Source of the DNA: Halalkalicoccus sp. CG83 | GTDB taxonomy: Archaea > Halobacteriota > Halobacteria > Halobacteriales > Halalkalicoccaceae | NCBI RefSeq assembly: GCF_037081715.1 | Contig: NZ_JAZDDH010000002.1 | Span: forward strand, 1 to 64,000 | DNA: 64,000 bases | Direction: 5' to 3' | Shown here: one piece after another, positions 14,466-16,583 of the stretch | Layout of the letters: each line of letters opens with the position of its first letter | Position numbering within the stretch: the first letter of the stretch is position 1 | Position numbers and translations under genes: made by a program | The notes under the pieces: generated by a model | What the model saw: the letters and a program-made list of their open reading frames with translations, nothing else | Told to the model about the DNA's origin: nothing | Databases searched by the model: none

Positions 14466-15650
14466 ATGACTGAACATTACGGGACCATCGTAATCGGCGG
14501 CGGCCAAGCCGGCTTGGCCGCCGGATACTACCTGAAAAAGTACGACCAAGACTTCGTCATTCTCGATGCGAGCGACCGCGTCGGCGACGCATGGCGGGCC
14601 CGTTGGGACTCCCTCCGGGTGTTCACGCCCGCCCGCTACTCGAGCCTACCGGGGATGGACTTTCCGGGCTCACCGTACGCCTTCCCTACGAAGAGCGAAG
14701 TGGCCGATTACCTGGAGGCCTACGCCCAGCGGTTCGACCTGCCCGTCGAACTCGGCGTCCGCGTGGACGGGCTGGAACGGAGCGGCGATGGCTTCCTCGT
14801 CACGGCAGGCGACCGGCGGATCGAGGCGGATACCGTCGTGGTGGCGATGGCGAGCTACCAGGTCCCGAAGGTCCCGGATTTCGCGGCGGAGCTCTCCGAC
14901 GACGTCGTCCAGCTGCACACGAGCGACTACCGCAACCCCGATCAGCTCCAGGACGGGGACGTGCTCGTCGTCGGAGCGGGCAACTCCGGTGCCGAGATCG
15001 CCCTCGACGTCGCCGCTTCACGCCGGCTGCAAGCGAGACGCTCCGCGTCTCGCCCTGTCGCCTCCGAGCACGAAACGTGGCTGTCGGGCCGGGACGTCGG
15101 CCACGTACCGTTCCACGTCGACTCGTGGGTCGGCCGTCACCTCGGGGTCCCGTTCGTAATGCGCGTGCTCTTCCACCGGATCTTCACGACGGGGACGCCG
15201 ATCGGGCGCCGTATCCGCCCGAAGATGCTCTCACAGGGCGGCCCGCTGGTGCGCACGAAGCCGGGCGATCTGGCCGCGGCCGGCGTCGAGCGGGTGCCTC
15301 GCATGACCGGCGTTCGCGACGGTCGCCCCGTCGTCGGGGACGACGACGTTCTCGACGTCGAGAACGTCGTCTGGTGCACTGGCTTCCGCCCTGACTTTTC
15401 GTGGATAGAGCTCCCGATCTTCGACGGGAAGGAACAGCCCAAAGAGCCCGTCCACGTGCGCGGCGTCGTCCCGGACGAGCCGGGACTGTACTTCGTCGGC
15501 CTGTTCTTCCTGTACGCGATGACGTCGGGGCTGTTCACCGGCGTCGGTAGGGATGCAGAGTACGTCGTCGACCACCTGACGTCGACGGCGCGGCAGCAGC
15601 CTCGTCCGAGCTCTACCGGATCGGTGGACGGACTCCTACAGCAGTCGTAG
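14466..15650 (+). CDS. flavin-containing monooxygenase / FAD-NAD(P)-binding oxidoreductase
   Basis: A 394-residue two-dinucleotide-binding flavoprotein. The FAD site is IVIGGGQAGLAAGYYL at residues 8-23, the NADPH site VLVVGAGNSGAEIALDV near residue 170, and ENVVWCTGFRPDFSWI near residue 300 is the ATG-type strand of this family (CzcO/TrkA-like). Immediately after the NADPH motif there is an extra stretch of about 18 residues (RRLQARRSASRP region) that relatives lack; it is encoded by a perfect palindrome at 15033-15053 and keeps the frame. Whether the enzyme still works is unclear, since the insert sits behind the NADPH-binding helix. The substrate is unknown. Confidence 0.83.
   Translation: MTEHYGTIVIGGGQAGLAAGYYLKKYDQDFVILDASDRVGDAWRARWDSLRVFTPARYSSLPGMDFPGSPYAFPTKSEVADYLEAYAQRFDLPVELGVRVDGLERSGDGFLVTAGDRRIEADTVVVAMASYQVPKVPDFAAELSDDVVQLHTSDYRNPDQLQDGDVLVVGAGNSGAEIALDVAASRRLQARRSASRPVASEHETWLSGRDVGHVPFHVDSWVGRHLGVPFVMRVLFHRIFTTGTPIGRRIRPKMLSQGGPLVRTKPGDLAAAGVERVPRMTGVRDGRPVVGDDDVLDVENVVWCTGFRPDFSWIELPIFDGKEQPKEPVHVRGVVPDEPGLYFVGLFFLYAMTSGLFTGVGRDAEYVVDHLTSTARQQPRPSSTGSVDGLLQQS
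15033..15053. repeat. palindrome inserted in frame in the flavin monooxygenase gene
   Basis: GCGAGACGC-TCC-GCGTCTCGC, a perfect inverted repeat with 9-bp arms and a 3-base spacer. It falls inside the protein stretch that has no counterpart in related monooxygenases, between the NADPH motif and the HETWLSGRDVGH block. Confidence 0.65.
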
Positions 15651-16109
15651 TTGAGTTCAGTGTTGCCCCCGGGTCTGAGAACGGCCAGTCTCGCGAACGT
15701 CGCCATCTCACACGGTCTACTTCGTCCTCACCTGGATCCGGATTACCCGTGGTGACCTCACCCGCTGTATCTCGCACAGGGTTTCTGGCAGCTACTCGGT
15801 AGTTCGCTACATCTCTGCAAGGTAACAAATGGGTAGTCAGCGGATCCTAGACGTCACTACTACCTATCCCCTGTCCAGATCGCGTACTGACTACAACGGT
15901 TGTATACAACAGACGGTCATCGCTCGTTTCAGTCCCTGGGAGACGAAACAGCCGTTAGGTATGTGTGCGTACCGAGTACCTTCCTCCTCGAAACACGTCG
16001 TCACAAAGCAACAGTCAGAAGTTTTGATAGTATGATACTTATATGTGGTATGGTGTCATAGAACACACTCCCGCTAGCTCTGTAGCGACGGGCATGCGGG
16101 AGTGAAACC
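15651..16109. other. 459-bp non-coding stretch ahead of the DUF1330 gene
   Basis: No convincing gene. It is lower in G+C than the flanks and holds a perfect 12-base palindrome GTTGTATACAAC (15899-15910), which could be an operator, a TATA-like CTTATATG at 16039-16046, and the structured leader described separately. A 68-codon open frame at 15829-16035 has a composition unlike a haloarchaeal protein and I do not call it. Confidence 0.5.
16066..16104 (+). promoter_or_regulatory. switch-like leader hairpin masking the ribosome-binding site of the DUF1330 gene
   Basis: CACTCCCGC (16066-16074) pairs perfectly with GCGGGAGTG (16096-16104), 9 bp around a 21-nt loop, and the 3' arm contains the GGGAG that lies 7 bases before the ATG at 16110. 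A second hairpin, CGCTA-GCTCTG-TAGCG (16072-16087), extendable with CCC/GGG to 16092, uses the same 5' bases, so the two folds exclude each other: one hides the Shine-Dalgarno sequence and the other exposes it. A TATA-like box at 16039-16046 puts the RNA start just upstream of the leader. Confidence 0.55.
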
Positions 16110-16583
16110 ATGAGCCAGGAACCCACTTCGAACGGCATCTTCCGCCGAACGCTGTTGAAAGCCGGGGCGGCCATAGCGGGCACGCTCGGGATGACAACGT
16201 CCGTAACCGCCAGTAGCCCTACGGAGGAGACACGGGATGACGAACAGGAACCAAGCGAACCCGATCCATGTCAGAAAGCATACCTCATCGTCGTCAGCGA
16301 GATAACGGACATGGACCGATTTATGAACGAATACCTTCCTGTTGCTGCTGAGACGGCTGATGCCTACGGCGGGGAGACACTCGTTTTCTCGTTTGACCCG
16401 AACGTGGTTGAAGGCGAATGGGACCATACTCTGACGGTCGTCGTGGAATTCCCATCCCTCCAAACAGCACGAGAGTGGTACGCCGATGAAACCTACCAGG
16501 AAGTCAAGCAGATTCGCCATGAGACCACCGCCTACACGAATCTGATATTTGCCCCTCAATTCGTCCCTGAAGATCTTTCATAA
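16110..16583 (+). CDS. Tat-exported DUF1330 domain protein
   Basis: A 157-residue protein. Residues 1-35 are a twin-arginine signal (RRTLLKAGAAIAGTLG), followed by an acidic linker and a DUF1330 domain (about residues 53-150) of the dimeric ferredoxin-like alpha/beta barrel kind, with VVVEFPSLQTAREWYADE as the family block. DUF1330 proteins are normally cytoplasmic and uncharacterised; export is unusual. The gene is less GC-rich than its neighbours and lies in the accessory segment. It has a structured leader that may control its translation. A hairpin 33 bases after the stop may end the transcript. Confidence 0.82.
   Translation: MSQEPTSNGIFRRTLLKAGAAIAGTLGMTTSVTASSPTEETRDDEQEPSEPDPCQKAYLIVVSEITDMDRFMNEYLPVAAETADAYGGETLVFSFDPNVVEGEWDHTLTVVVEFPSLQTAREWYADETYQEVKQIRHETTAYTNLIFAPQFVPEDLS

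Follow-up and report, generated by a model that had tools for sequence, protein, structure and literature searches.

Two overlapping inverted repeats lie directly before a DUF1330 gene of the haloarchaeon Halalkalicoccus sp. CG83, and in the messenger RNA one of them would bury the ribosome-binding site. Do the repeats constitute a translational switch, as the initial annotation of this DNA suggested, or do they serve the gene in another way? The window, which is the whole stretch of DNA analysed here, is 64,000 nucleotides long, and the gene, promoter and stems described below are on its forward strand.

The gene, its promoter and its two stems

The gene (16110..16583) encodes a protein of 157 aa, and its assignment to DUF1330 is confirmed by Pfam (PF07045, E 1.7e-22). 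The N-terminus is of the twin-arginine type. The Tat signal postulated earlier is recognizable by eye (RRTLLKAG), but Pfam gives it 12 bits against a cut-off of 22.7. DUF1330 relatives with 50-61% identity across almost the whole length are present in a minority of Halobacteria; two scans of genome contigs with DUF1330 proteins returned nothing that was confirmed. The gene lies in a segment of about 1 kb with a lower GC content, 0.52-0.56 compared with 0.65-0.70. When the DNA was compared with that of nine members of the same family, no counterpart of the gene appeared at that place. The flanking genes are present in these nine relatives, at separate places, and the region from 15.76 to 16.80 kb gives only short matches in them, one of which, in genome G003, falls in the DUF1330 coding part. 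The description of the segment as accessory is therefore upheld by both base composition and comparison. Farther upstream, a perfect 30-bp palindrome with the centre ctcgacgtcgag is located at 15342-15371, inside a flavoprotein gene (14466-15650).

The promoter is represented by a TATA box, TTATATG (16039..16045), 70 nt 5′ of the ATG. Between it and the start site, alignment and a promoter-pattern search identified a promoter-proximal motif (16048..16060), which may be a regulator site; its consensus in the leader family described below is GTATGTTRACGTG, and the version in the window, GTATGGTGTCATA, is degenerate. Across 464 kb of this genome, TATA-like 5-mers are most frequent at a distance of 28-30 nt from the start codon, on its 5′ side. 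Therefore, judging from this spacing in leaderless-type genes, the window mRNA probably starts at about 16067-16071, where A16067 is the sole purine. Such a start would not be downstream of 16074, which the initial annotation had named as one case that would speak against its proposal. A tiny frame in frame with the gene (16050-16061, ATG GTG TCA TAG) is probably 5′ of the transcription start.

Both stems are present at the coordinates reported for them. Stem A (16066..16104) pairs CACTCCCGC (16066-16074) perfectly with GCGGGAGTG (16096-16104), and it covers a Shine-Dalgarno-like (SD) GGGAG at 16098-16102, 7 nt 5′ of the ATG at 16110; the best duplex of the GGGAG region with the anti-SD is worth -8.1 kcal/mol. 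Stem B (16072..16087) pairs CGCTA (16072-16076) with TAGCG (16083-16087). The proposed CCC/GGG extension of stem B is possible but needs a bulge: either C71-G90, C70-G91 and a U69-G92 wobble are formed over an AC bulge, or CCC/GGG is formed over a GAC bulge with release of C72. The two stems share only three bases, 16072-16074, and to this extent they exclude each other, but an outer stem of 7 bp is compatible with an inner GCUA/UAGC hairpin of 4 bp, at -14.0 kcal/mol for the two together.

When 16040-16130 is folded with RNAfold, as had been recommended, the structure is strong (-35.3 kcal/mol, z = -3.5), and of 200 dinucleotide shuffles one equals it. For the leader proper, between the inferred start and the ATG, z is -5.1 and none of 300 shuffles is as good. 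In the best predicted fold, stem A is capped by a small apical pairing other than stem B. Stem B alone is worth -6.4 kcal/mol and its extended form -7.1 kcal/mol, in comparison with -24.8 kcal/mol for the best stem A fold; at 37 C the latter thus has an advantage of about 17.7 kcal/mol over extended stem B. According to the ViennaRNA model, the stem B pair 16074-16085 does not exceed a probability of 0.0001 between 37 and 70 C or in 3 M salt, whereas stem A exceeds 0.96 under the same conditions. Since stem B is unpopulated and stem A dominates, the leader at equilibrium is predicted to be one structure, not two. The cost of opening the SD region is 16.5 kcal/mol in the window, and none of 200 controls is as high. 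Among 418 gene starts computed in 464 kb of the same genome and contig, 2, the window's own being one, have nine or more uninterrupted base pairs over the SD region; the count is approximate, as the starts come from a simple script. A 9-bp stem over the SD is hence rare, though not unique in the genome.

The predicted folds depend on where the message begins. Starts at or before 16070 retain stem A, and starts at or after 16071 lose its 5′ arm and give stem B. The 5′ arm of stem A straddles the inferred start zone; the stem B hairpin is downstream of it.

A family of promoter-hairpin leaders

About 17 further genes in Natrialbaceae-type genomes are preceded by the same combination of promoter, start region and a hairpin at the position of stem B. 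These genes encode DUF1330, cupin, plastocyanin-like, Lipoprotein_15, DUF1326 and DUF7343 proteins ("plastocyanin-like" is a label given by eye, and Pfam gave no match for that protein). The distance from TATATG to the ATG in the homologous leaders is 60-73 nt. For example, the leader L010, which precedes a DUF1330 gene 51% identical to that of the window in a genome of another family (f4), has a distance of 72 nt versus 70 nt in the window. Its hairpin, TCGCTGA/TCAGCGA, stands in place of CGCTA/TAGCG, and AGCGACGGG follows the hairpin in both. Cupin, plastocyanin-like and Lipoprotein_15 genes came to light through weak matches confined to the twin-arginine N-terminus; these genes have the same promoter and a hairpin at the same position. 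Because these first members had been found through the N-terminus, 391 genomes were searched in an unbiased manner with a covariance model built from ten leaders. This model recovered the leaders found through the N-terminus; its additional matches lie before plastocyanin-like, cupin, DUF1326 and DUF7343 genes. With the exception of the window, all its strong matches in the 391 genomes are in f4 genomes, one of which is that of H. turkmenica (Natrialbaceae). One more member, L153, was added by a promoter-only pattern search. It precedes an exported HAD-like gene and folds as a nested hairpin; its membership is based on promoter and hairpin position, and its score with the family model is unclear (E = 0.4).

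An independent model was built from 16 leaders with the window left out. It finds the window leader with 44.3 bits (E = 2.3e-9 in 64 kb), a score that covers promoter, hairpin and start region jointly, and the next best match in 464 kb of the same genome has 11.4 bits. On the strength of this match we consider the window leader a member of the family by sequence. The family comprises about 18 copies, has no Rfam entry and was previously uncatalogued; a search of the leader region against Rfam gave no match up to E = 5. In the window's own genome the family model (R1) detects the single window copy only, and the consensus promoter (with at most 3 mismatches) was not found there. No leader was seen, by model at the gene start or by eye, in DUF1330 relatives of the MTNEPNPD type (L006-L009, L045/L060, L064) or in the DUF1330 copy from the same genus (L003). 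Therefore, the leader does not simply track the DUF1330 family. An import of gene and leader together, as envisaged in the initial annotation, would fit these sequence comparisons, because the locus is absent from the nine relatives and the relatives of the leader are confined to f4.

A number of other loci resemble parts of the module. In H. turkmenica, a DUF1330 gene on pHTUR01 (L156) is not preceded by the family leader; it lies beside a helix-turn-helix gene and also beside a cluster of plastocyanin, metal transporter and multicopper oxidase genes, and a copper link for DUF1330 is possible. Plasmid pHTUR02 of the same species carries two near-identical copies of the module (L105 and L113, at ~146.5 and 122 kb), about 128 nt before genes for membrane-anchored DUF7343 helix-turn-helix proteins; these proteins are possible regulators of the gene set. 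A DUF1330 gene with an internal TAA in genome G054 (L015) may be a degenerated member of the family: 5′ of 1501 it has weak versions of the motif and the hairpin (13.5 bits, E 0.23). In about a dozen genomes of genus g10 (L124-L135), the motif TATGTGGTGTGTTGACGTG is found 69 nt 5′ of 3-hydroxyacyl-CoA dehydrogenase genes. No hairpin is evident by eye in these leaders, and the GTATGTTRACGTG-like motif without a hairpin means that promoter motif and hairpin are separable. Some cupin leaders outside the family (L083, L086, L022, L082) contain hairpins near or over the SD, e.g., TCCTCCTGCTGGGAGGA, which suggests that structured leaders are common for exported cupins. A DNA search of the 391 genomes with the bare leader was discarded, as it gave mostly unrelated short matches. 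Also rejected was L041, where a CCCGCTAC..GTAGCGACGGG hairpin is located 5′ of a divergent DoxX-like gene and to which the family model gives no score; its hairpin at 1501-1530, CCCGCTACTCTCGTAGCGACGGG, is nearly stem B of the window.

Conservation of the two stems

The initial annotation had looked to homologous leaders for compensatory changes in both stems. Such changes are seen in stem B; stem A is not conserved. In the model-fitted alignment, with the window left out, 90% of the cells of the main helix pair, and 3 of 500 shuffles attain as high a covariation score. Sliding the pairing partners reduces the covariation score from 0.307 to at most 0.192. In an alignment of ten leaders made from sequence only, the score is reached in 17 of 500 shuffles. 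These covariation figures derive from 10-17 partly related sequences, and the shuffle controls ignore relatedness. The arms vary among leaders (GCTA/TAGC, CTGA/TCAG, CCGATT/AATCGG) and the loop sequences differ; the adjacent motif is conserved.

The position of the hairpin is equally constrained. A perfect stem of at least 5 bp starting 26-40 nt after TATAT occurs in 7 of 10 gene types (1.3 expected, nominal p 3e-5), and all seven begin 32-36 nt after TATAT. Counting all leaders, such a stem is present at that register in 8 of 16, with 1.9 expected from shuffles; the other half has no perfect 5-bp stem, i.e., the hairpin is imperfect in about half of the members. Fifteen of the 16 leaders fold better than their own shuffle mean (mean z -1.7). 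The alignments show the stem B hairpin to be conserved, with pairing kept through compensatory changes; going by the TATA spacing, its first base in the relatives is probably at most a few nucleotides away from the 5′ end of the message. A chance origin of the leader hairpin is unlikely given the z of -5.1 for the fold, the 44.3-bit model match and the fixed register.

Stem A, which buries the SD, is specific to the window. SD occlusion is well above control in the window only. It is marginal in L153 (0.03) and L013 (0.065), and in L010, L099, L112 and L073 the opening cost is below or about that of the controls.

Possible function of the leader

Recurrence of the module before unrelated genes, a conserved hairpin and a constant hairpin register are observed. 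What they mean is best captured, to our mind, by a recurrent promoter-leader module in which a 5′-terminal mRNA hairpin tunes stability or translation and is here extended over the SD; we give this explanation about an even chance of being right. The module would consist of a TATA box, the GTATGTTRACGTG motif just 3′ of it in the relatives, and a short hairpin whose 5′ arm would start at about the first mRNA nucleotide, followed by a purine-rich ribosome-binding region and the ATG. The promoter would set the timing of message production, and the hairpin may protect the message, lower the initiation of translation, or both. In the window, the hairpin appears to have grown into a 9-bp stem that covers the SD as well, and the result would be a strong, essentially constant damping of translation, if the message starts at or upstream of 16070. 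A role as a 5′-terminal hairpin seems the most likely one because of the anatomy of the leader and because of results in Haloferax volcanii, where a stem-loop in the 5′-UTR lowers translation, its stabilization abolishes translation and its destabilization raises it (PMC2636863).

The main rival operates at the DNA level. A palindrome whose distance from the TATA box is fixed could just as well be a DNA element, and the inverted repeats may be wholly or partly the site of a regulator, e.g., a membrane-anchored helix-turn-helix protein of the DUF7343 type, with RNA pairing as a by-product. The conserved GTATGTTRACGTG motif adjoins the repeats, and the two leaders before DUF7343 genes on pHTUR02 would fit autoregulation; the degenerate motif of the window itself also counts against the 5′-terminal hairpin. 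However, arms that change with pairing kept and loops of varying length are unusual for a protein site, and the repeats begin at, not before, the inferred transcription start. We regard such an operator as unlikely, yet deserving of serious attention. That stem A is a functionless palindrome which arose by chance in a drifting leader, with only the promoter being of importance, would be consistent with its lack of conservation and with the one other gene start among 418 that has a stem at least as long. The exceptional fold of the leader (z = -5.1) and the coincidence of its hairpin with that of the family make this rather improbable.

The original proposal, in which stems A and B alternate to bury and free the SD in response to a ligand, ions, heat or folding kinetics, has in its favour that both stems exist and overlap, that the predicted fold of L098 also buries its SD, and that synthetic riboswitches masking SD and AUG work in H. 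volcanii in a salt-dependent manner (PMC8241225). Since stem B lies 5′, it can form first during transcription, and a kinetic role is conceivable. At equilibrium, however, the energies are out of balance by 17.7 kcal/mol, and stem B is unpopulated up to 70 C and in 3 M salt. The burial of the SD is peculiar to the window copy, and the leader of ~40 nt contains nothing resembling a ligand-binding domain, conserved or otherwise, and no Rfam match. An RNA thermometer is rejected, as no melting is predicted up to 70 C. The window leader is probably not a two-state switch, and we find one operated by ligand, ion or heat unlikely; including folding kinetics, the proposal is still improbable. Alternatively, the choice of start site could set translation: a start at about A16067 would yield mRNA with a buried SD, and one at or after 16071 an SD-free mRNA with stem B. 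The inferred zone spans this boundary, where the fold flips from A to B between 16070 and 16071. This argument derives from sequence and energy models, and the same arrangement is seen in no relative; we consider it very improbable.

The 5′-terminal hairpin that we favour can be compared with several known systems. The 5′-UTR of HVO_0721 (hp) of H. volcanii (Brenneis and Soppa 2009, PMC2636863) is likewise a short structured leader, and its predicted stem-loop lowers translation. The HVO_0721 leader lacks an SD and depends on its 3′-UTR for regulation; the window leader differs in having the SD inside the stem and the hairpin at the inferred 5′ end, and in recurring with a shared promoter before many genes. 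The synthetic theophylline riboswitches of H. volcanii (PMC8241225) share the SD-masking stem, but they carry an aptamer and mask the AUG too, whereas the window leader contains no part similar to an aptamer, and the AUG lies outside the main stem. A natural archaeal riboswitch is known, the fluoride riboswitch of Thermococcus kodakarensis (cited in PMC8241225). Like this riboswitch and RNA thermometers, the window leader is a leader RNA before a gene, but it has no Rfam match, no conserved ligand core and no predicted melting to 70 C. Hairpins at or near the mRNA 5′ end are also a feature of bacterial messages of the ompA and ermC type, in which they can block 5′-dependent mRNA decay. A stability effect is putative here, and the decay enzymes of archaea differ from those acting on these bacterial mRNAs.

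As a long shot, the leaders may belong to an undescribed regulon, in which the common promoter motif, read by a membrane-anchored DUF7343-type regulator, is coupled to the 5′-terminal hairpin, and in which the start site or the folding pathway decides SD exposure. Control would then be jointly transcriptional and translational, and the regulon would cover scattered exported proteins: DUF1330, cupins and plastocyanin-like proteins. According to dRNA-seq of H. volcanii, 72% of protein-coding transcripts are leaderless, and the same study came to the conclusion that translational control in haloarchaea does not typically involve structured leaders (PMC4983044). A promoter-plus-hairpin leader before unrelated genes, mostly for exported proteins, would counter this conclusion, and the ~18 leaders represent a defined set for testing leader function in haloarchaea.
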